NCBI GenBank assembly: GCA_900696645.1
Contig: CAADGV010000015.1
Coordinates: forward strand, 1-18,728
Length of the DNA stretch: 18,728 bases
Direction: 5' to 3'
Source of the DNA: an uncultured Chlorobiota bacterium
Lineage (GTDB): Bacteria; Bacteroidota; Ignavibacteria; UBA10030; UBA6906
Numbering within the stretch: position 1 is the stretch's first letter; each line of letters begins with the position of its first letter. The notes below the pieces were generated by a model. The model was not told the origin of the DNA, did not search any database, and was given only the letters and a program-made list of their open reading frames with translations. Positions 7,066-18,609 of the stretch are shown here, piece by piece. The translations under genes and the position numbers were made by a program.

Positions 7066-7100
7066 CTAGACAGGTTTTCGCAGTTGTCGTGGACCATTGG

Positions 7101-7550
7101 TTGGGTGCGGATAACATCGTGTCCTTGCAAGACATGGTACGGGACGGAGTCCCGCGCTACGCCTTGTTGTAGGGCGATTCTCCTGAATCGCCTTACGCGG
7201 ATTCAGCCACGACGGGCCCCGTTGGGGTCGGGTGCGGGTGGCCTTGTGGCTTTGGTAAGGCATGATACGGGACGGAGTCCCGCGCTACGCCTTGTTGTAG
7301 GGCAATTCTCCTGAATCGCCTTTACGCGGATTCAGCCACGACGGGCGCCGTTGGGGTCGGGTGCGGGTGAGTTCGTGTCCTTGCAAGACATGGTACGGGA
7401 CGGAGTCCCGCGCTACGCCTTGTTGTAGGGCGATTCTCCTGAATCGCCTTACGCGGATTCAGCCCGACGGGCCCCGTTGGGGTCGGGTGCGGGTGAGTTT
7501 GTGTCCTTGCAAGACATGGTACGGGACGGAGTCCCGCGCTACGCCTTGTG
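7101..7550. repeat. Tandem repeat array, about 3.5 copies of a 128-bp unit
   Basis: The landmark GGGACGGAGTCCCGCGCTAC recurs at 7141, 7269, 7397 and 7523, giving spacings of 128, 128 and 126 nt. The last copy breaks off at CTACGCCTTGTG near 7550. Each full unit holds the hairpins GGGAC-GGA-GTCCC and CCCC-GTT-GGGG. Each also holds a 28-29 nt palindrome that begins GTAGGGC and ends TTAC (7169-7196, 7297-7325, 7425-7452). Copy 2 differs in the stretch before its landmark (7240-7264). Open frames cross the array on both strands, but only because the sequence is repetitive. There are no unique spacers, so it is not a CRISPR array. Confidence 0.85.
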
Positions 7551-7864
7551 GACACTTGATAATTTCGGTTGCTTTTGCTATTGTACATGCCAAGGATTTG
7601 ACTCCCCTACCCGTCTGCGCTATCAGGGGCGCGGACAACAATATCTACAAGTGTTACCCACCTCGGTCCAGGTAACGGGGTGCCGTACGCTGAGGCGTAC
7701 ATACGTTTATTCGTGACCGCGTATTATGCCGGTCGTTGATTTGGCACAAAGACCTGTTATAGGGGAAATGATTCACAAGCGGAACAACCAGCGCTATAGG
7801 GGCGACACTGCTTCAACAAATGAATTTTTCCATTGACCTCTGTCCCATAGATACCTGATACTGC
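7551..7864. other. Leader region before the defence operon
   Basis: No gene is seen. GTTACC (7653-7658) pairs with GGTAAC (7671-7676), and GTACGC-TGAG-GCGTAC forms a hairpin at 7685-7700. A weak promoter-like pair, TTGATT (7736-7741) and TATAGG (7758-7763) with 16 nt between, matches the sigma-70 consensus at only four of six bases each. TATAGGGG recurs at about 7794. No ribosome-binding site is evident before the ATG at 7865. Confidence 0.35.
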
Positions 7865-10800
7865 ATGCCCAAAATATTCGACAACATTGAACTGCAACTT
7901 CTTGAGGGTTTGAAATACACTCTTGATGTTTCACATCGAGCAGATTTCTGCGTTGGGTATTTTAACCTGCGCGGGTGGAAACAAGTTGCTGACAGTATTG
8001 AAACCTGGGTCGGCGGCGAGGGGAAACAATGCCGGCTGCTTGTGGGAATGCAGCGCAGACCGGAGGAGTTGGTGCGTGAGATGTTCTCAACAAAAGAACC
8101 TGAGCTCATAGATCAGGCAACAGCGGTCAAACTCAAGAAACTGCTGGCGCAAGATTTCAAAGATCAACTCACAATCGGATTGCCCACTGAAGCAGATGAA
8201 AAAGGATTGCGTAAGCTCTCCACTCAAATCAAGAGCAAACGGGTTGTTGTCAAGTTGTTTCTGCGACATTCCCTACATGCCAAGTTATATCTCCTCTTCC
8301 GAGATGACAAGATCAGCCCCATTATTGGATACGTCGGCAGCAGTAATCTGACCCTTGCCGGGCTGAAGAACCAGGGAGAACTCAACGTTGATGTCGTGGA
8401 GCAAGATGCCGCACAGAAGCTGTCAACGTGGTTCAATGACAGGTGGGATGACCGTTGGTGCATTGACATCTCCGACGAGCTTGCTCAGATCATTGATGAG
8501 AGCTGGGCCACTGAGCAACTGCGGTTACCCTACCATATTTACATCAAGATGGCGTACCATCTTTCACGGGAGGCGATTGCTGGCATCTCACAATTCACAA
8601 TCCCGCCAATCTTTCAGAAAGAATTGCTGGAGTTTCAACAGAAGGCGGTACAAATTGCAGCCCATCATCTCAACAGTCCGAATCGGGGCGGAGTGCTTAT
8701 TGGTGACGTTGTTGGCTTTGGGAAGACGATTACCGCAACAGCACTCGCAAAGGTATTCGAAGAAGACTTCTTTCTTGAAACGCTCATCATCTGTCCAAGG
8801 AATCTTGTGAGAATGTGGGAAGACTACGTGTACAAATACAAGCTACACGCCCGAGTCATCTCTATCTCACAAGTGCAGTCGATCCTACCGAAGGAACGTC
8901 GCTACCGGGTCGTACTCATCGACGAGAGCCACAATTTGCGCAATCGTGAGGGTAAGAGGTACAGGGCAATCCATGAGTACATTCAGTTGAATGAGAGCAA
9001 GGTCATTCTCCTTACTGCGACACCGTACAACAAAACCTATTACGATCTGTCGAACCAACTACGGCTATTCATCCAGGAAGACAAAGATCTTGGCATTGCA
9101 CCCGAACGCTTCATTGCAGATTTGGGGGGACAAGTGCAATTCATGGCAAAGTACCAATATCCGGCACGATCACTTCTGGCCTTTGAAAAAAGTGAGTACG
9201 CCGATGATTGGCGTGAACTGATGCGATTGTTCATGGTTCGACGGACACGGAGCTTCATAAAGGACAACTACGCCAAGACTGATCCGGCAGATACCAGGAA
9301 GTACCTTGAATTCGCCGACGGACGACGTTCGTATTTCCCAGATAGAATTCCCAAGAAAGTAGAGTATGAATTCGACCCCGCGGATCCATCCGACCAGTAT
9401 GCGAGGCTCTATTCGCAAAAGGTTGTTGACACACTTGATCGACTGACGCTCGCCCGCTATGGACTCGGCAGGTTCCTGGAAGACAGGCCCCTCATCAAGC
9501 CAACGAAAGAAGAGCTTGTCGTTATTGACAACCTTTCACGGGCCGGAAAGCGCCTGATGGGATTCTGCCGCACGAATTTATTCAAACGGCTGGAAAGCAG
9601 CGGACACGCATTCCTGCTCTCAATTGCACGGCATGTTCTCAGAAATTTTGTGTATGCCTATGCGCTGGAGGAGAACCTCGCTTTGCCCATCGGTCCCCAG
9701 GAATCGAACCTGCTCGATGAGTTTCTCGATGACGAGGATTTTGACAAGCCCGCGGGAAACCAACTCAGGCTGATGTTGAGGGAAGACGAGTATTACGAGC
9801 AAGCAAGCGCTGTGTATGATTTGTATCGCCGAGAATTCAAAGACCGACTCGATTGGATTCGTGCCGGCCTGTTTCAGCCGTCACTGAAACAATCCTTGAT
9901 CGATGATGCGAAAGAGCTTCTGAAGATTCTCAACATGGCGAAGACTTGGAATGCCGATAAAGATCGCCAGCTGAAAGCTCTTCAAGAACTCTGCTCCGAG
10001 CGCCATCCCAAGGAAAAGATACTTGTATTTACGCAGTTTGCAGATACAGCCGACTATCTCTACGAGCAACTCAAACGAACGGGAATAGACCGGATAGAAT
10101 GTGTTACGGGAGATTCGGAAGATCCTACGGAATATGCTTACCGGTTCAGCCCGGTAAGTAACGAAAGAACCGAGGTAAAGGGAACGAAAGAGGAGATCCG
10201 TGTTCTTATCTCAACTGATGTACTGAGCGAAGGACAGAATCTCCAAGACTGCCACATTATAGTGAACTTTGATTTGCCTTGGGCACTTATTCGACTGATT
10301 CAGCGGACAGGGCGCGTCGACCGGATTGGCCAGCAATCCGAGAGAATCCTATGCTATTCATTCCTTCCGGAAGACGGACTTGAGAACATCATTCAACTCC
10401 GCACAAGACTCAGAAATCGGATTCAGCAGAATGCGGAAGTGGTCGGTTCTGATGAGGTGTTTTTTGAAGGAGACCCTATCAATCTTTCAGATCTCTATAA
10501 CGAGAAAGCAGGCATACTCGATCAAGAAGACGAGGGGGAAGTTGATCTTGCCTCTTATGCCTATCAAATCTGGAAGAATGCTATTGATGCGGATCCGTCT
10601 CTCAAGAAAACCATCAGCGAGCTTCCCAACGTCGTGTACGCAACAAAGGCACATCCTGATGCCGATAAGGCAACCGAAGGTGTGGCTGTGTACACACGAA
10701 CAGCAGATGACAATGATATTCTTGCCTGGATGAACGCCAAGGGAGAGATTGTTACGCAATCACAACTTGCAATACTGAAGGCAGCGGAGTGTACATCGGA

Positions 10801-11203
10801 GACGAAGGCACTCCACCGGTTGGAGAATCACCATGAGCTGGTGCAGTCTGCGATGGGTCAAATACGCGAGGTTGAAAGTAACGTCGGGGGGCAATTGGGA
10901 AAGAAAACGGGCGCAAAGTACCGAACGTTCATGCGCCTGACACGATACCTCGAAGAAAACAAGGACACACTGTTCGCAACCGAGGCATTGAAGAGGGCGC
11001 TCGATGACATCTACAAGTACCCGTTACGTGAGTCTGCGCGAGAAACTCTGAACCGGCAACTCAAAACCGGACTTGATGATGCTCAGCTTGCCGACCTTGT
11101 TGTTGCCCTGCGCGAGGAAGATAAGCTCTGCATCATAGATCAAAAGGAAGTAGAGCGGCGCGAACCTCAAATCATCTGTTCACTTGGATTCAAAGTAGAA
11201 TAG
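7865..11203 (+). CDS. PLD-nuclease / SNF2-type helicase fusion, defence-associated
   Basis: A protein of 1112 residues. Residues 1-200 form a phospholipase-D-like nuclease domain with one HxK site (H138, K140) followed by YVGSSNLT (about 156-163). The helicase half has Walker A GDVVGFGKT (280-288), DESH at 353-356 and LLTATPYN (382-389). The C-terminal RecA lobe runs from KILVFTQF (about 718) through STDVLSEGQNLQ to QRTGRVDRIGQ (813-823). About 290 further residues show no motif I recognise. The start is supported by the family-like opening MPKIFDNIE...RADFCVGYFNLRGW. By family knowledge this is an ATP-driven DNA translocase with a nuclease head, paired with a methyltransferase that marks self DNA. 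The methyltransferase starts 3 nt after the stop. It resembles the SNF2 component of DISARM class 1 in size and pairing, but drmA, drmB and drmC are absent here. Confidence 0.9.
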   Translation: MPKIFDNIELQLLEGLKYTLDVSHRADFCVGYFNLRGWKQVADSIETWVGGEGKQCRLLVGMQRRPEELVREMFSTKEPELIDQATAVKLKKLLAQDFKDQLTIGLPTEADEKGLRKLSTQIKSKRVVVKLFLRHSLHAKLYLLFRDDKISPIIGYVGSSNLTLAGLKNQGELNVDVVEQDAAQKLSTWFNDRWDDRWCIDISDELAQIIDESWATEQLRLPYHIYIKMAYHLSREAIAGISQFTIPPIFQKELLEFQQKAVQIAAHHLNSPNRGGVLIGDVVGFGKTITATALAKVFEEDFFLETLIICPRNLVRMWEDYVYKYKLHARVISISQVQSILPKERRYRVVLIDESHNLRNREGKRYRAIHEYIQLNESKVILLTATPYNKTYYDLSNQLRLFIQEDKDLGIAPERFIADLGGQVQFMAKYQYPARSLLAFEKSEYADDWRELMRLFMVRRTRSFIKDNYAKTDPADTRKYLEFADGRRSYFPDRIPKKVEYEFDPADPSDQYARLYSQKVVDTLDRLTLARYGLGRFLEDRPLIKPTKEELVVIDNLSRAGKRLMGFCRTNLFKRLESSGHAFLLSIARHVLRNFVYAYALEENLALPIGPQESNLLDEFLDDEDFDKPAGNQLRLMLREDEYYEQASAVYDLYRREFKDRLDWIRAGLFQPSLKQSLIDDAKELLKILNMAKTWNADKDRQLKALQELCSERHPKEKILVFTQFADTADYLYEQLKRTGIDRIECVTGDSEDPTEYAYRFSPVSNERTEVKGTKEEIRVLISTDVLSEGQNLQDCHIIVNFDLPWALIRLIQRTGRVDRIGQQSERILCYSFLPEDGLENIIQLRTRLRNRIQQNAEVVGSDEVFFEGDPINLSDLYNEKAGILDQEDEGEVDLASYAYQIWKNAIDADPSLKKTISELPNVVYATKAHPDADKATEGVAVYTRTADDNDILAWMNAKGEIVTQSQLAILKAAECTSETKALHRLENHHELVQSAMGQIREVESNVGGQLGKKTGAKYRTFMRLTRYLEENKDTLFATEALKRALDDIYKYPLRESARETLNRQLKTGLDDAQLADLVVALREEDKLCIIDQKEVERREPQIICSLGFKVE

Positions 11204-11206
11204 CCT

Positions 11207-14200
11207 ATGTCTATCAAGAAAGCCGATTTCTTCCGCTACATCAAACAGTTTGAACTGAAGGAACTCTTCAACGAACTTGGTTGGAATCGGGTAAAGCTCT
11301 CCTATCCCGTGCCTATTGATGAGCAGAACTATTCCCTCATAGGCATCGCCGAGAAGAAGAATTTTGTGATTTTCCTCTGTGAAACACCGCAAGGAAAGAA
11401 CATCCCGGATTCAGCGGTACGGCGTAAGATTGACAATGTGATTGCAAAACTCCACCACGAGCATCTGATCATCTATGCCGACGGGAACAAGACCCGCCAG
11501 CGATGGGAGTTGCTCATTCGAGAAGAAAACAAGCCGGTAGTCTGTCGCCCTGTCGATTACTACAAGGGACAGGAACCCGAATTGCTGTTCCAAAAACTTG
11601 AAGGACTCTTCTTCTCGTTCGACGACGAGGAGAAATTGACGATCGTGGATGTTCGCTCCCGTGTGATGGCAAACTTCGAGAAGAACGCAGAGGTCGTCAC
11701 CAAGAAATTCTATGAGAAGTTCAGCAAGGAACACGGGAAGTTCCTCGGCTTCATCAAGGGCATCCAGAGCAAGGTGGATCAGGAGTGGTATGCCTCACTC
11801 ATGCTCAACCGGCTCATGTTCATCTACTTCATTCAGAAGAAGGGCTTCCTCGATAAGAACAAGGACTACCTTCGTACCCGGCTCAAGGCTGTCCAATCAA
11901 GGAAGGGAAAAGACAAGTTCTACTCCTTCTACAGAAGCTTCCTCCTCGTCCTCTTTCACAAAGGACTCGGCTCTCCGCTTCGGGATGCGGAGATCGAGGC
12001 AGAAATCGGCAAGGTTCCCTACCTCAACGGCGGTTTGTTTGATGTACACAAGCTCGAACAGGAAAACAAGAACATCACCATCGAGGACAAGGCCTTCGAG
12101 CGGATCTTCGATTTCTTCGACGAATACAACTGGCATCTCGATACACGCGTCACAGCCACCGGCAAAGACATCAACCCGGATGTTATCGGGTACATCTTCG
12201 AGAAGTACATCAACGACCGGGCGGCGATGGGGGCGTATTATACCAAAGAGGACATCACCGAGTATATCAGCAAGAATTGCATTGTGCCGTGGTTGTTCGA
12301 TGAGGTGAAGAGGAATTATCCAAAGCCGTTTTCCGTAGGGACGCACGGCCGTGCGTCCCTACAAGGAAACATCTGGTCCTTCCTCCAGCACAGCGGCGAT
12401 ACATACATCTATCCCGCCGTCAAGCATGGGATCCCCAACGCAGGTGTAGGGGTGGAACATGTTCCGCCCGCACAGGTCGAGGAGGATTTCTCCGATCTCC
12501 CTGAAGACGTTCGTTCCTGCATAGACCCCAACACCCCCGACCTTGTCGAGAAGCGCAAATGCTGGAACCGTCCCGCCCCGCCGGAGATTGCCCTGCCAAC
12601 CGAGATTTACCGTGAAGTGATTGCCCGCCGCAAGCGCTACTACGAGGTGCGGAAGAAGATAGAGCGTGGCGAGATCACCGAGATCAACAACTTCATCACC
12701 TACAACCTCAACATTCGTCAGTTTGCGCAGGATGTGTTGGAGCAGACGGATGACCCGAAGCTGATCATGGAGTTCTACAAAGCCGTGCGCAAGATTACCG
12801 TGCTCGACCCGACGTGCGGCTCAGGGGCATTCCTCTTCGCAGCGCTCAACGTCTTGGAGCCGTTGTACTTTGCGTGCGTGACTCGTATGCGCGAGTTCAT
12901 TGAACAGGATGCCCGCCACGAAGGGGACGGGCAGGGCAAGCCCGCCACAAAGAGGGCAGGCAGGCACAAGTTCTTCGAGGAGCAGATTGCGCTCATAGAC
13001 TCCGACGACCATCCCAGCGAGGAGTACTTTATCTACAAGTCCATCATCCTGCACAACCTGTACGGCGTGGACATTATGAAGGAGGCGGTAGAGATTGCCA
13101 AGCTCCGTCTCTTCCTCAAGCTTGTGGCAACGTGCGACGTGGACTATGCAAAGCCTAACCTTGGACTTGAGCCGCTGCCGGATATTGACTTCAACATCCG
13201 CTCGGGCAATACGCTCGTTGGCTATGCGACTCTTGCAGACCTCGACAAAGGCGAGCAGGGTGGGTTGTTTGGCAACGAAGAGAAGCAGGCGATACTCGAA
13301 GAATCCGACGTGGTGAGCAGGGCGTACGCACGGTTTAAGGATGCGCAATTGGTGATGAACACCAACCCGAAGTCGTACAAGGATGCAAAAGACGATCTGA
13401 ACAAGCGTCTAACAGTCCTCAACGACAAGCTCAACAAGTATCTTGCAGTAGCGTATCTCGACGCCTCGTACAGCAAGAAGGCTTTTGATACGTGGATCGC
13501 CTCTCACCAGCCGTTCCATTGGCTGGCGGAGTACTACTGGATTATTGCTGAGGGTGGGTTTGATGTGATTATCGGGAATCCACCTTTTATCGAAGTCAGG
13601 GATATACCTTACGAGGTGAAGGGATTGCGTACGCTTGATACAGCAGCCGTTCATGCAATGTGTGTTGAACGCAGCCTGCAAGTCTCGGGCGAAAAGGCCA
13701 GCATCAGTATGGTATACCCGATGTCATTGGTATCAACGCAAAGAATGAAATCTGTCCAGATTCTCTTGGAGAGCGAGGGCGAATCTTGGTATGCAAATTT
13801 TGCCTGGAGACCAGCGAAACTGTTCGATGAGGTGAATAGGGCAATCTCGATTCTTGTCCATCGTCCTGCTGCGCAAACTCGGGCGTGGTCCACAGGGTAT
13901 GTGAAATGGACTTCCGAAAACCGGTGCAATCTTATTCCTACTGTGGCGTATGTCGAAGTCCCAACCACAAGAAGCTACCACTGGATTCCAAAGTTCTCAA
14001 ACAGCGTTGAGAGCACTATTCTAAAGAAGATGTTTGATTCCAAGAACACTCTTTCCAAATTCTTCTCGTCATCAAAATTCCGTGTATACTACCGAACAAC
14101 CGGCGGTTTGTACTGGAAGGTATTCACAGACTTTGCTCCGGCATTCAAGGTTAAGGGGAAGAGTGGACATTCGTCTAGGGAGACGTGGTTCGCCGTTTCA

Positions 14201-14596
14201 TCTGAGGATCATGTTAAGCCAATCGTAGCATGTCTCAGCAGCAACCTGTTCTGGTGGTGGTATACAATCACCAGCAACCTCAGGGACCTAAACCCATCTG
14301 ACATTGCCAATTTTCCGGTTCGGGGATCCATCGTCAACGATGAAACAGCACGCAAGGTGGGTGCTAGGTACTTAGCTGACATTGTTGCCAAGAGTACGAT
14401 GCTCGTCAGAGAGCAGAAACAGACTGGACGAACAGAAACTCAATCGTTCAAGATTCAAGCCTCCAAGCCCATCATCGACGAGATCGACAAAGTGTTGGCG
14501 AAGCATTACGGCTTCACGCCGGAGGAGTTGGATTTTATTATCAATTACGATATCAAGTATCGGATGGGCAAGGAGCTGGGGGGAGAGGATGGCTAG
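11207..14596 (+). CDS. Eco57I/PglX-like adenine-specific DNA methyltransferase
   Basis: A protein of 1129 residues. The N-terminal 150 residues are a variable domain without a clear nuclease motif, followed by a helical region. The AdoMet site is VLDPTCGSGAFL (532-543), with NLYGVDIMKEAVEIAKLRL as the next motif and NPPF at 791-794, the N6-adenine methyltransferase signature. Residues about 800-1080 should be the target-recognition part. The end SKPIIDEID...YGFTPEELDFIINYDIKYRMG is the usual C-terminus of this family. Two 28-nt palindromes are inserted in frame at residues 377-386 and 414-423, and a repeat-like insertion lies near 569-586, all in or near linkers. There is no separate specificity subunit. 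Its last 8 nt overlap kwaA. The role inferred is host-DNA marking for the PLD-helicase, possibly with restriction by the same pair. Confidence 0.92.
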   Translation: MSIKKADFFRYIKQFELKELFNELGWNRVKLSYPVPIDEQNYSLIGIAEKKNFVIFLCETPQGKNIPDSAVRRKIDNVIAKLHHEHLIIYADGNKTRQRWELLIREENKPVVCRPVDYYKGQEPELLFQKLEGLFFSFDDEEKLTIVDVRSRVMANFEKNAEVVTKKFYEKFSKEHGKFLGFIKGIQSKVDQEWYASLMLNRLMFIYFIQKKGFLDKNKDYLRTRLKAVQSRKGKDKFYSFYRSFLLVLFHKGLGSPLRDAEIEAEIGKVPYLNGGLFDVHKLEQENKNITIEDKAFERIFDFFDEYNWHLDTRVTATGKDINPDVIGYIFEKYINDRAAMGAYYTKEDITEYISKNCIVPWLFDEVKRNYPKPFSVGTHGRASLQGNIWSFLQHSGDTYIYPAVKHGIPNAGVGVEHVPPAQVEEDFSDLPEDVRSCIDPNTPDLVEKRKCWNRPAPPEIALPTEIYREVIARRKRYYEVRKKIERGEITEINNFITYNLNIRQFAQDVLEQTDDPKLIMEFYKAVRKITVLDPTCGSGAFLFAALNVLEPLYFACVTRMREFIEQDARHEGDGQGKPATKRAGRHKFFEEQIALIDSDDHPSEEYFIYKSIILHNLYGVDIMKEAVEIAKLRLFLKLVATCDVDYAKPNLGLEPLPDIDFNIRSGNTLVGYATLADLDKGEQGGLFGNEEKQAILEESDVVSRAYARFKDAQLVMNTNPKSYKDAKDDLNKRLTVLNDKLNKYLAVAYLDASYSKKAFDTWIASHQPFHWLAEYYWIIAEGGFDVIIGNPPFIEVRDIPYEVKGLRTLDTAAVHAMCVERSLQVSGEKASISMVYPMSLVSTQRMKSVQILLESEGESWYANFAWRPAKLFDEVNRAISILVHRPAAQTRAWSTGYVKWTSENRCNLIPTVAYVEVPTTRSYHWIPKFSNSVESTILKKMFDSKNTLSKFFSSSKFRVYYRTTGGLYWKVFTDFAPAFKVKGKSGHSSRETWFAVSSEDHVKPIVACLSSNLFWWWYTITSNLRDLNPSDIANFPVRGSIVNDETARKVGARYLADIVAKSTMLVREQKQTGRTETQSFKIQASKPIIDEIDKVLAKHYGFTPEELDFIINYDIKYRMGKELGGEDG
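12335..12362. repeat. Perfect 28-nt palindrome inside the methyltransferase gene
   Basis: GTAGGGACGCACGG is followed immediately by its exact reverse complement, with no loop. It starts on the first base of codon 377 and, with two more bases, encodes VGTHGRASLQ, adding ten codons without breaking the frame. As I recall the family, homologues lack this stretch between the PKPF and GNIWSFLQ segments. Confidence 0.9.
12446..12473. repeat. Second, imperfect 28-nt palindrome inside the methyltransferase gene
   Basis: It begins GTAGGGGTGGAACA, and 11 of its 14 mirrored positions are complementary plus one G-U. It has the same length, the same GTAGGG start and the same codon phase as the element at 12335, beginning exactly 37 codons later. 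It encodes VGVEHVPPAQ. It looks like an older, partly decayed member of the same family. Confidence 0.7.
12911..12964. repeat. Two 25-nt direct repeats inside the methyltransferase gene
   Basis: The stretches 12911-12935 and 12940-12964 both start GCCCGCCAC and end GCAGG and agree at 21 of 25 positions, separated by GCAA. Together they encode a low-complexity ARHEGDGQGKPATKRAG stretch between two conserved helices. This suggests a third repeat-derived in-frame insertion. A similar GCCACAAGGACGGC motif occurs in the decayed copy near 16403. Confidence 0.55.
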
Positions 14597-15224
14597 CGCA
14601 CACAGACAACAACGCCTCCACCGCGGTGTGCAGTTTTCTTTGTTTGCCACCTCCTACACACCTCTGTTCGTTCTGATCATCCTGCGACAGCTGTTCCAAA
14701 ACGGAAACAAACTCACCAACGCATCAACCACGGGAGAGTTTGTCACCATCATCGCTGCGGATTTCCTCCTTTCGCTAATGCTAATAACTCTCATATGCAT
14801 GGGAATGTTTGGCTTGGTGGCATCCTTAAAGAACTTGAACGTCCGAGCGAAGCAGAACGGTGTTCGCGTGTCAATCACCAACGTTCAGAATCGAAGCGGC
14901 GAAGCGATAAGTTACATTGGAACGTATATCATCCCGTTCCTTTTCCAGGATTACTCCGGATGGTACGAGGTACTGTCCGTCCTGTTTCTATTGTATGTCA
15001 TTTACAGAATCTACATCCATTCGTCCCTGCTGCTCATCAACCCGCTTCTTAACCTTCGGTATTCTCTGTTTGAGATTGGCTTCATCGAGGAGCAGAACGG
15101 TCGACAAAGAACAGGCATGATGATTACTCGGAATAGATTTCTTCAAGAGGGTGATAGCCTCTTGATTTATCCACTGGGTCAAAAACTCTACTTGGGAGTC
15201 ATGAACGATGAAGAAGGAAGCTGA
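14589..15224 (+). CDS. kwaA: Kiwa defence membrane protein KwaA
   Basis: A 211-residue integral membrane protein. Hydrophobic segments lie at about residues 16-36, 51-79, 107-121 and 125-152, giving roughly four helices. A polar cytoplasmic loop with NVRAKQNGVRVS separates the second and third. The stretch ISYIGTYIIPFLF, then LLLINPLLNLRYSLFEI and a soluble C-terminal part fit my recollection of KwaA. The assignment is strengthened by the KwaB-type gene that follows. The ATG at 14589 overlaps the methyltransferase end by 8 nt, and a purine-rich AAGGAG/GGGGGAGAGG tract precedes it; the open frame extends further upstream only as a shadow of that gene. In Kiwa, KwaA is the membrane component thought to sense phage at the envelope and to act with KwaB. 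Confidence 0.8.
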   Translation: MASAHRQQRLHRGVQFSLFATSYTPLFVLIILRQLFQNGNKLTNASTTGEFVTIIAADFLLSLMLITLICMGMFGLVASLKNLNVRAKQNGVRVSITNVQNRSGEAISYIGTYIIPFLFQDYSGWYEVLSVLFLLYVIYRIYIHSSLLLINPLLNLRYSLFEIGFIEEQNGRQRTGMMITRNRFLQEGDSLLIYPLGQKLYLGVMNDEEGS

Positions 15225-16254
15225 ACTTCGCGGGCTCTTGGATTCCATATCAAGGCGGCCGCCACCCGCTGTGAGACTCTACTTCGTTTCAAGGCGGCTC
15301 AAATCCGAAACGACGAGGGCTTCTCGCGTTATGCAGAAGTACACGTTCCATCTCCACCAATTGGACATTGATGAAGATCTGCGCCGGATGTTTCTCGATA
15401 TGATGAGAGAACAGTTGGAGAAGATCATGGCAGATAATGACCTTAGCCTTGCCGCATATGAGATCATCGATGATGACGAACCGAAGCTGTATACGTATCA
15501 GCTGCAAAACAAGGCAATGTCGTTTGCGGATGTGACGAAACATCAGCTGATGCGGGGAGTCGATATCCCCTCGGTCCAGGACATAGGTGCATTTCTTGGA
15601 GAACATGAGTTGTGGGCGTTTTGCCTCGATGTCACACCTGAGAAGGGGGATCGGTTCACCACTTTCACGAAAACAACTCCCGGCAGAGTCGCAATTGACG
15701 AGAGGGAGAACCCTGAAAGGCTGCTGCCGTCAAGAGTCTTGCGTACCCTGTTCAACTCAACGAATTCCATGCTGGAGCTTCTCCACGGTGACACGGTCAA
15801 CTTCGATAAGAGAATGGACTGCTTGTATCGATTCAAAGATGATAGGTTCTTCATATTCCACAAGAAGCATTTTGAGAAGATAGTGTCACTGGAAGAAGAG
15901 TACAAGGAATCAGCCGGTCGTGTCGTTGATGACCTTGAGGCATCTACAATGATTGTTGGCCTTGATGCTGTGAAGGATGAGTTGGAAGGAAACCCGACAA
16001 TTCACAGGAGGCTGCACAAGATTGCACAAGCCGCCGACTATAAGAAATTGGACAGGACTCGAGTGAAGAAAATGATTATGACGGCGAAGTCATTTGGCCT
16101 GCAATTGAAAATCAAGAGTGGTAAACTCCACGTTGAGGATAGGCACGACTTAGACCTTGTTGTGAGGATGTTGGACGACTATTTCTTGGAGAGCAAGCAG
16201 ACCGGAAACAAGTATGGTGCGTCCGTGAAGAAGCGATGGATGGCCCAGGGGTGA
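15208..16254 (+). CDS. kwaB: Kiwa defence effector KwaB (DUF4868)
   Basis: A 348-residue soluble protein. The DUF4868 pattern is recognisable: LWAFCLDVTP...FTTFTKTTPGR, a GDTVNFDKRMDCLYRFKDDRFFIFHKKHFEKI core, and a C-terminal part with a SFGLQLKIKSGKLHVEDRHDLDLVVRMLDD segment and SKQTGNKYGASVKKRW. The start ATG at 15208 lies 17 nt before the kwaA stop and has GGGAG nine bases upstream. This tight overlap matches the two-gene Kiwa arrangement. By established knowledge KwaB partners KwaA and contributes DNA-directed anti-phage activity. Here it is the last gene of an operon that starts with a PLD-helicase and a methyltransferase, which is not part of the minimal Kiwa definition. Directly downstream lies a broken duplicate of the methyltransferase 3' end. 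Confidence 0.85.
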   Translation: MKKEAELRGLLDSISRRPPPAVRLYFVSRRLKSETTRASRVMQKYTFHLHQLDIDEDLRRMFLDMMREQLEKIMADNDLSLAAYEIIDDDEPKLYTYQLQNKAMSFADVTKHQLMRGVDIPSVQDIGAFLGEHELWAFCLDVTPEKGDRFTTFTKTTPGRVAIDERENPERLLPSRVLRTLFNSTNSMLELLHGDTVNFDKRMDCLYRFKDDRFFIFHKKHFEKIVSLEEEYKESAGRVVDDLEASTMIVGLDAVKDELEGNPTIHRRLHKIAQAADYKKLDRTRVKKMIMTAKSFGLQLKIKSGKLHVEDRHDLDLVVRMLDDYFLESKQTGNKYGASVKKRWMAQG

Positions 16255-16280: not shown

Positions 16281-16451
16281 AGAAACCGGCTTCGGCAACT
16301 ACTCCAAGCCCATCATCGACGAGATCGATCCCGCCCTTGGCGGGATTGGCGAAGCGTGGAGTTATCCCGTCCCGATGAGTCGGGACGGGAGGTTTACGCC
16401 GGCCACAAGGACGGCTGGCAAAAACAACCGGAGGAGTTAGGGGAGGAGTAA
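16281..16451 (+). pseudogene. Decayed second copy of the methyltransferase 3' end
   Basis: The 27 bases at 16302-16328 are identical to 14461-14487 and encode SKPIIDEID, the conserved C-terminal motif of the methyltransferase. Further matches are TTGGCGAAGC, a TTTACGCCGG / TTCACGCCGG block and CGGAGGAGTT, in the same order as in the intact gene. The stretches between are filled by palindromic insertions and the frame is broken. The residues before SKPIIDEID (ETGFGNY) differ from the intact gene (ETQSFKIQA), so it came from a related allele rather than a recent copy. It cannot encode a working protein. Confidence 0.7.
16328..16419. repeat. Cluster of palindromes in the decayed copy
   Basis: ATCCCGCC-CTT-GGCGGGAT spans 16328-16346. 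TCCCGTCCCGA (16365-16375) pairs over 11 bp with 16380-16390 across TGAG. GCCGGCC (16398-16404) pairs, with one G-U, with GGCTGGC (16413-16419). They interrupt the sequence that is continuous in the intact gene at 14480-14535. Confidence 0.7.
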
Positions 16452-16485: not shown

Positions 16486-18609
16486 ATGAAACATTTCAAG
16501 AATACAAATATGTCGAAATCAAAAAAGTATTTCACATACAATGACCTTATCGAATCTATTCGAGCCATGTTCCAACGAGGGGGGCAGGCACAATTAGCAG
16601 CAGAAGCTACAGACATGATCCTGGGAAGAATGGGGCGATCTGACGAGGAGCCCTTTCTTGGTTTGAAGTGTACAAAACATGGAGAGAACCGAATCCCTCA
16701 TTGTGTAAAGTATGATCTTAATGGCTTTTCGCGACTCATCACAATCCAGGACAGCGGCATTTGCGTGATTTGTTTTCTCGGTAATCACGACGAGTGTGAG
16801 AAATGGTTGACAAGAAACAAAGGTCTGGTACTGACAGTTAACAATTCCAAGGAATTGCAACCAGTTCGTACCACACGCGACATTTCCATCGATGACCTTC
16901 GGATTGATTCGAAGACGAATTGGTCAACCGGAAAACTCGTCTCGAAAATCCCGGCTAGGTATTATGACCGAATAGCAATAGGTGTGAAGAGGAGTACTTT
17001 GATAAAATTCGAGGCTCTAGAGTCCACCAACACTGAAGAAGAAATAATGGCAATTTCTTGTGAGATCGGTGAGATAGATCAGCAGAATGTGTTCTTTGAT
17101 GTGTTTAACAAACTGCGAGCGGGCGATAGCGATGGTGCGAAACAAAGTATTGATCTGTATACAAACCAGATAACGAAAGTCGAGAATCTCACGCTTGAAG
17201 AAATCGAACAAGTAGTCGAGGGTGATGCGTTTGCAGATCCCGAAACCGTTTCTCAGTTGTTAAACCATTTCATGACCACTGCTGACTATCGTGACTGGAT
17301 GCTGTTCATGGGTCGGGAGCAGAAGGAAGTTGTAAACCAAGACTTTAGCGGTCCAGCCAAACTAGCCGGGGTTAGCGGTTCCGGCAAAACGTGCGTTGTT
17401 GTGAAGCGAGCGATTCGATTGGCGCAGAAATACTCCAATCAGGAGGTCCTTGTGTTAACGTTGAATCCCTCCCTCTCACGACTGATATCAGTGCTGGTTG
17501 ACTATGCCTGCCCGCCGGAGTCCCGTGAAAAGATAACTGTCAAGTCGTTCTGGCAGCTATGTCAAGAGGAATTGAAGAAATTTGAACCAGAGCATTTCGA
17601 TCGTCTGTACGCAGACGTGACGTGGAAGAATGGAGAACATGTCTCTGAAATATGGGAGGAGTACTATGATATCTGGAACCAGCGCGAGTTTAACAATCGT
17701 GACGCTTCAGTGATGTTGCCTATTCATCGGGAGTTGCTGACCCGATCTGTTTGTCCGAAGGAATACCTAGCTCAGGAATTGGATTGGATTCGAAGTGCTG
17801 TGAGTTCTGACAACAGGGCTGATTACATCAGTATCGAACGAAAAGGAAGGCATGTTCCCTTTAACTCGGATTACCGCTCCTTGATTGTTCAGGGGCTTGA
17901 AGGATGGGAGAAGAAGATGAAATTCGTCGGAGTGACGGACGATTTGGGCTTGGCGCTGGCCTTACACCGGCACCTCGACGAGATTAGGCCAAACTTCAGA
18001 TGCATTCTGGTAGATGAAGCTCAAGATTTTGGAACAATTGAACTCGAAATAGTGCGAAGGCTTGTCAAGGAGGATGAGAATGACTTGTTCTTGTGCGGTG
18101 ACTTAGCCCAGAGGATCTCTACCAAGCATCATAATCTGAGGAGGGCAGGTATTGATGTTCACGGGCGATCGAAAGCTCTACTGAGGAACTATAGGAACAG
18201 CAAAGAGATCCTTCTTGCGGCCCATGAGGTCTTGTCAAAGCATCTCAGTGTCAACGATATACAGGACGAAGACTTTGAAGTCCTGGATCCTGAATTTGCA
18301 AACTTCTCTTCTCCCAAGCCGCTCGTGCTCGAGGCTGAGAATCTCGAATGGGAGTTAGCATCTGCACTTGACTATATTAGACAGAAATTCCAAAAAACAT
18401 CCCAGAACCAGAAGGCATGCATAGCTATTGCTGGGTTGAATTTTCTTTCGGTGAAGCAAGTAGGAAAGACATTTGATTTGCCCGTTCTCGATAATAGCAT
18501 TAGCATTCAGGAGGCACAGATTTTTCTTTCAGATCTCGCCCAGATAAAGGGCTATGAATTTGATTCGGTGTGCATATTGAATTGTGCGTTCGGTGTAATG
18601 CCTGTGTAA
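16486..18609 (+). CDS. UvrD-like superfamily 1 helicase, probably 3'-truncated
   Basis: A 707-residue protein. Walker A is GVSGSGKT (295-302), Walker B LVDEAQD (508-514), motif III FLCGDLAQRIS (about 539-549) and motif IV LLRNYRNSKEI. Motif V is IKGYEFDSV (687-695), after which the protein ends in LNCAFGVMPV. The motif VI region with the TRA-type arginine is missing, and none of the three forward frames after the stop resembles it. The first 100 residues contain CVKYDLNGFSRLITIQDSGICVICFLGNHDECEKWL across two strands and a helix, reminiscent of RelE/ParE-type folds; this is a weak resemblance. The start could also be the ATG at 16510 (MSKSKKYFTYND); neither has a clear ribosome site. The spacing and broken DNA before it suggest a separate transcript from kwaB. 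Confidence 0.8.
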   Translation: MKHFKNTNMSKSKKYFTYNDLIESIRAMFQRGGQAQLAAEATDMILGRMGRSDEEPFLGLKCTKHGENRIPHCVKYDLNGFSRLITIQDSGICVICFLGNHDECEKWLTRNKGLVLTVNNSKELQPVRTTRDISIDDLRIDSKTNWSTGKLVSKIPARYYDRIAIGVKRSTLIKFEALESTNTEEEIMAISCEIGEIDQQNVFFDVFNKLRAGDSDGAKQSIDLYTNQITKVENLTLEEIEQVVEGDAFADPETVSQLLNHFMTTADYRDWMLFMGREQKEVVNQDFSGPAKLAGVSGSGKTCVVVKRAIRLAQKYSNQEVLVLTLNPSLSRLISVLVDYACPPESREKITVKSFWQLCQEELKKFEPEHFDRLYADVTWKNGEHVSEIWEEYYDIWNQREFNNRDASVMLPIHRELLTRSVCPKEYLAQELDWIRSAVSSDNRADYISIERKGRHVPFNSDYRSLIVQGLEGWEKKMKFVGVTDDLGLALALHRHLDEIRPNFRCILVDEAQDFGTIELEIVRRLVKEDENDLFLCGDLAQRISTKHHNLRRAGIDVHGRSKALLRNYRNSKEILLAAHEVLSKHLSVNDIQDEDFEVLDPEFANFSSPKPLVLEAENLEWELASALDYIRQKFQKTSQNQKACIAIAGLNFLSVKQVGKTFDLPVLDNSISIQEAQIFLSDLAQIKGYEFDSVCILNCAFGVMPV

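Follow-up and report, generated by a model that had tools for sequence, protein, structure and literature searches.

The PLD-SNF2, methyltransferase (MTase), kwaA and kwaB genes of the window, the stretch of 18,728 nt from an uncultured Chlorobiota bacterium analyzed here as a whole, are best explained as two defence systems placed in one transcription and translation unit. According to this reading, whose probability is put at roughly 80%, a Kiwa cassette has been inserted 3′ of a restriction-modification (R-M) operon, where it would serve as a second layer of defence. Kiwa is a known two-gene antiviral system.

Organization of the operon

The four genes lie on one strand in the order PLD-SNF2, MTase, kwaA, and kwaB, separated by a 3-nt gap and then by overlaps of 8 and 17 nt; the open reading frames were found just where the first-pass annotation had placed them (Table 1). 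The start of kwaA is the ATG at 14589, and an AG-rich Shine-Dalgarno-like sequence, GGGGGGAGAGG, stands immediately 5′ of it. The 5′ neighbour of the island is an unrelated NiFeSe hydrogenase operon. Just 5′ of the PLD-SNF2 gene, window positions 7099-7590 hold four tandem copies of a unit of about 128 nt, related copies of which occur elsewhere in the genome (best 93%, contig C4). On the other side, a UvrD/HelD-like ORF (16486-18609) begins 231 nt beyond kwaB, and the contig ends at 18728. This ORF may be truncated, since its match is to a partial UvrD C-terminal domain alone and a homologue was not found in other loci at E 1e-10.

Table 1. Features of the four-gene operon and of the repeated MTase 3′ end (window coordinates).
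Feature	Position	Strand	Description
PLD (HKD-like nuclease)-SNF2 translocase	7865..11203	+	1112 aa; restriction subunit of R-M-like pair
Eco57I-type N6-adenine MTase	11207..14596	+	1129 aa; PADLOC type IIG family PDLC03628
kwaA	14589..15224	+	Membrane protein with hydrophobic segments; 8-nt overlap with MTase
kwaB (DUF4868 / PF16162)	15208..16254	+	17-nt overlap with kwaA
27-nt stretch close to MTase 3′ end, repeated behind kwaB	14461..14487	+	
Fossil of MTase 3′ end	16302..16328	+	Exact 27-mer; in-frame reading KETGFGNYSKPIIDEID

Identity of the four proteins

The PLD-SNF2 protein matches the PADLOC HKD+Snf2 profile (5e-54), and the MTase matches REase_MTase_IIG (PDLC03628) over its full length with 913 bits. 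Pfam matches across the genes are to PLDc_2, SNF2, Eco57I, and KwaB. The catalytic motifs HxK, GSSN, DESH, DPTCGSG, and NPPF are all found in the proteins, and the MTase thus carries the DPxxGSG and NPPF pair of type IIG enzymes. In an alignment of 28 rows, K50 of the MTase N-terminal domain is invariant but is not preceded by any conserved D/E, which makes the PLD domain the more probable nuclease; a fold search with the MTase N-terminus for a nuclease gave no clear match (best Z 6).

KwaA is recognized as the membrane protein of Kiwa by its profile match (PADLOC PDLC00212, 5.7e-61), by the match of its sequence to KwaA of the solved Kiwa structure 9mrg (1.7e-7), and by three hydrophobic segments in a simple scan. 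The NCBIfam KwaA model also matches (2e-19), its 70 bits being below the curated cut-off of 100. The adjoining gene, the only kwaB copy of the genome, encodes a DUF4868-domain protein matching PF16162 (3e-12, above cut-off), PDLC00223 (3e-86), and NCBIfam KwaB (7.5e-13, below its cut-off), and the KwaB family profile matches the solved KwaB 9o0i/9mrx (8e-9).

The PLD-SNF2/MTase pair and its cargo slot

The first-pass annotation had proposed that the four genes form one fused system. The coupled operon is real, but conservation speaks against the fusion: a count across genomes finds kwaAB behind the PLD-SNF2 and MTase families only rarely, in 2 of about 97 loci of the pair. When genome contigs were scanned with an alignment of the MTase, 80 loci from many phyla were obtained. 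A PLD-SNF2 homologue is present in 72 of these and lies directly upstream of the MTase in 64 by a strict criterion (the set includes three plasmid loci), which is the two-gene neighbourhood of an R-M-like pair; PLD-SNF2 homologues that are 49-79% identical adjoin the same MTase in many phyla. Neither BLAST nor seven Kwa HMMs covering distant subfamilies detected kwaA or kwaB in any of the 80 loci, 70 of which (three plasmid loci again in the set) extend at least 800 nt 3′ of the MTase. A second, distant MTase family added 14 loci, mostly with PLD-SNF2, in none of which the seven HMMs found a Kwa gene. By these two counts, the family does not have kwaAB as conserved genes three and four, and the first two genes are a stand-alone R-M-like module. 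The closest relative of the pair (PLD-SNF2 79% identical) belongs to a genome without a KwaB match (G014), which is 92% complete and in which the MTase is interrupted by a contig end.

The pair is also carried by plasmids, namely, Pelobacter pPRO1, Synechocystis pSYSX, and one of Picosynechococcus. In two cyanobacterial plasmid loci (L044 and L045), a VapC toxin gene and a small partner ORF are inserted between PLD-SNF2 and MTase. Scans of viral contigs and of a phage collection revealed no phage relatives of Kiwa or of the MTase.

The slot 3′ of the MTase accepts cargo of many kinds. In 35 of 73 loci, the next gene is on the same strand and no more than 30 nt away, often at −4 (a 4-nt overlap). 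DprA-like proteins are the commonest of the 31 passengers scanned (10/31, across several phyla), and the others include DUF3644, OLD-type ATPases, RhuM, YhcG, XisH, reverse transcriptase, Schlafen, SIR2, DUF2513, and a Y1-type transposase. The DprA-like passengers, found in L061-L140, are small proteins (e.g., L112:11294-11758 and L138:11342-11800), and this family is a possible third component of PLD-SNF2/MTase operons. As tight coupling is ordinary in this slot, it is by itself no evidence for one machine.

Remnants of the MTase 3′ end

Behind kwaB, the MTase 3′-end stretch of Table 1 is repeated without a mismatch (27/27 nt; E 9e-7 in the whole genome), and a whole-genome search returned no other match to this intergenic stretch. 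The repeated residues are a conserved C-terminal motif of this MTase family, and the sequence preceding them in the fossil differs. The intact part is 27 nt only, and by eye decayed homology seems to run on to about 16452. A chance origin is ruled out by the blastn E value of 1.8e-8 in the window and by a score of 54 versus at most 25 in shuffled sequences.

In 15 of the 82 MTase loci with downstream DNA, some of the final ~150 nt of the MTase recurs in direct orientation behind at least one passenger, a count that includes the window, excludes L107, and contains three short or weak cases, L071, L206, and L209 (E ~3e-5). All 19 copies of the MTase 3′ end are direct, and no copy of the PLD-SNF2 3′ end was found behind passengers in the 82 loci. 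Two fossils each are found in L066, L093, and L135, as would be expected if passengers arrived in stacks, and many fossils are closer to the MTase of another locus than to their own, which fits displaced old alleles. The alternative that a scar is the end of another full MTase holds in L107 alone, which was hence left out of the count. In this locus (L107:7992-14975), the MTase has been duplicated in tandem: after the first copy and some small genes comes a large but partial second one, with 98% identity across 1430 nt.

The arrangement suggests a route by which kwaAB may have entered the cargo slot, namely, recombination at the MTase 3′ end. Such an exchange, anchored in the MTase, would bring a new 3′ end together with its passenger and leave the old 3′ end behind kwaB as a fossil. 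Translation of kwaAB would now be coupled to that of the MTase on the same message.

Kiwa in R-M operons of the phylum

The KwaB family alone (PF16162, PDLC00223) was used as query in about 1,390 genome look-ups within the same phylum, some genomes being repeated, and 20 kwaAB loci with readable neighbours were obtained. In nine of them, kwaAB is co-directional with an R-M gene and within about 45 nt of it. The partner is the PLD-SNF2/MTase pair in the window and in G559 (L163); type I genes in G190 (L050; M,S), G062 (L059), G650 (L160), G877 (L176), and G342 (L058, inside a type I operon), the type I genes of G877 and the HsdM of G650 being called from the first ORF residues and not from a profile match; Dcm plus an Eco29kI-type enzyme in G213 (L051); and an N6-MTase in G224 (L057). 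Type I and type II R-M operons are coupled alike, and Kiwa is promiscuous in its R-M partners. With the window excluded, 8 of 19 coupled loci against an assumed, unmeasured defence-island background of 10% give p = 3e-4. On the KwaB tree, the coupled label needs nine changes, all forced by supported branches, and the association with R-M has therefore been gained or lost many times. Among the other R-M-coupled Kiwa loci, a scar was found in L059 alone, where a copy of the hsdS 3′ end (30/33 nt, including the stop) stands behind kwaB.

Two further loci have unusual contents. In G650 (L160:3014-14122), the series HsdM-HsdS-KwaA-KwaB is followed within 12 nt by a protein of 2080 aa matching PDC-S68, a RecD-like helicase, and type I specificity domains. 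In G244 (L159:4557-6855), a lone KwaB-like protein with no evident KwaA is encoded directly 5′ of a type I specificity gene.

KwaB is found on plasmids in 16 records in all. Most of the plasmid kwaAB loci that were opened stand free, and none is tightly coupled to R-M. In one, a type I R-M operon precedes the cassette at a distance of 216 nt; in two, R-M genes occur close by on the opposite strand. The coupling pattern may thus be lineage-specific.

The possibility that kwaAB adjoins the pair in this genome only can be set aside, as G559 (L163) contains an independent operon with PLD-SNF2, MTase, KwaA, and KwaB in the same order, the gaps being about 288, 11, and 1 nt. Its MTase (PDLC03612), KwaA (PDLC00221), and KwaB (PDLC00222) all belong to subfamilies other than those of the window, which indicates that the arrangement arose at least twice; the four-gene arrangement is convergent and rare.

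Function of the coupling

From its family, the MTase is predicted to mark host DNA with N6-methyladenine, and PLD-SNF2 is likewise predicted to translocate on unmarked DNA and cut it. KwaA and KwaB would act as in the Kiwa systems already studied, forming a second layer of defence that is triggered independently. The first-pass annotation had taken the coupling as a sign of one system. Since most passengers of the slot are other genes that show the same tight or ATGA coupling, and since Kiwa is coupled equally to type I and type II R-M operons, the overlaps point to co-expression and not to a dedicated composite machine.

A composite that relies on the MTase for marking self, on KwaA for sensing entry at the membrane, and on KwaB for delivering unmarked injected DNA to PLD-SNF2 for cleavage is accordingly very unlikely. 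It would account for the overlapping genes, for the fact that different subfamilies came independently into the same gene order in G559, and for the strong enrichment of Kiwa beside R-M genes in general (9/20), but Kiwa is missing from the 94 other tested loci of the two MTase families and also partners unrelated R-M types, many other kinds of passengers are coupled likewise, and the insertion scar speaks against it as well. It seems doubtful as well that the coupling is functionally meaningless, a by-product of a 3′ end that recombines easily and at which defence genes pile up. The diverse cargo, down to a transposase gene, and the 3′-end fossils agree with such an origin, whereas the bias of Kiwa to R-M slots in the phylum and the good ribosome-binding site and overlap retained by kwaA do not.

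The presence of Kiwa at R-M operons far above random neighbours, together with the second four-gene operon, makes a functional interaction conceivable, and Kiwa may need or sense R-M. One refinement of the two-system reading holds that Kiwa backs up R-M in the manner of PrrC when a phage inhibits or evades restriction, co-expression being selected with no physical complex. That Kiwa has become embedded many times independently, and in different types of R-M operon, would suit it, and PrrC and PARIS are guardians of R-M (PMC12707154); however, many Kiwa loci are uncoupled to R-M (11/20, and nearly all of those on plasmids), and this refinement is rather improbable.

Relation to known systems

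A KwaA tetramer and KwaB make up the membrane supercomplex of Kiwa. This complex is recruited at phage attachment, and KwaB binds injected DNA and blocks replication and late transcription (reviewed in PMC12904381). The window holds both genes, in order and overlapping, with profile and PDB-sequence matches to both proteins. Unlike the free-standing system, they are embedded here behind an MTase and belong to a divergent subfamily (PDLC00212/PDLC00223).

The nearest precedent for the preferred reading of two co-expressed systems is TgvAB, which lies within a type I R-M operon of Vibrio VPI-2 and defends independently of HsdR restriction activity (PMC11411939). Layering by co-expression in the window would follow this example. 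Both cases have a complete two-gene defence in or behind an R-M operon; here, the cargo is Kiwa and the host operon is a PLD-SNF2/type IIG-like MTase pair, and the excerpts consulted on TgvAB mention no 3′-end scar. In EcoprrI, too, an R-M locus houses a second defence gene, PrrC. PrrC is a tRNA nuclease that senses inhibition of the R-M enzyme (PMC12707154), whereas such sensing by Kiwa would be hypothetical. Type-2 BREX-related systems consist of DUF499, an N6-MTase, and HKD-Swi2/Snf2 (PMC12839542). They share with the window an HKD nuclease N-terminal to a Swi2/Snf2 helicase, plus an N6-MTase, and differ from it by the DUF499 ATPase and DUF3780, for which no Pfam match exists among the five ORFs of the island. 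As for the DISARM core, neither DrmB nor DrmC is among the tested genes, and PLD-SNF2 scores 137 against the DrmD cut-off of 610.

Genes embedded in multi-gene systems were reportedly treated by Payne et al. in 2024. The literature searched, to which that work and the primary Kiwa paper did not belong, yielded no account either of Kiwa lying within R-M operons or of fossil MTase 3′ ends. The recurrent R-M coupling of Kiwa and the scars thus appear to be new, the novelty of the Kiwa part being provisional.

Tentatively, and at somewhat less than even odds, the 3′ ends of R-M MTase and specificity genes may be recurrent docking sites for defence cassettes stacked by recombination, Kiwa among them, with the old ends, displaced at each arrival, left behind the cassettes as in-frame fossils and the coupling making Kiwa a co-expressed second layer of R-M. 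One odd operon has in this way led to two testable patterns: Kiwa recurs in R-M operons of unrelated types, and passenger defences at MTase 3′ ends are accompanied by a remnant of the end that was displaced. Such scars offer a means of reconstructing the assembly order of defence islands and of finding more embedded defences.
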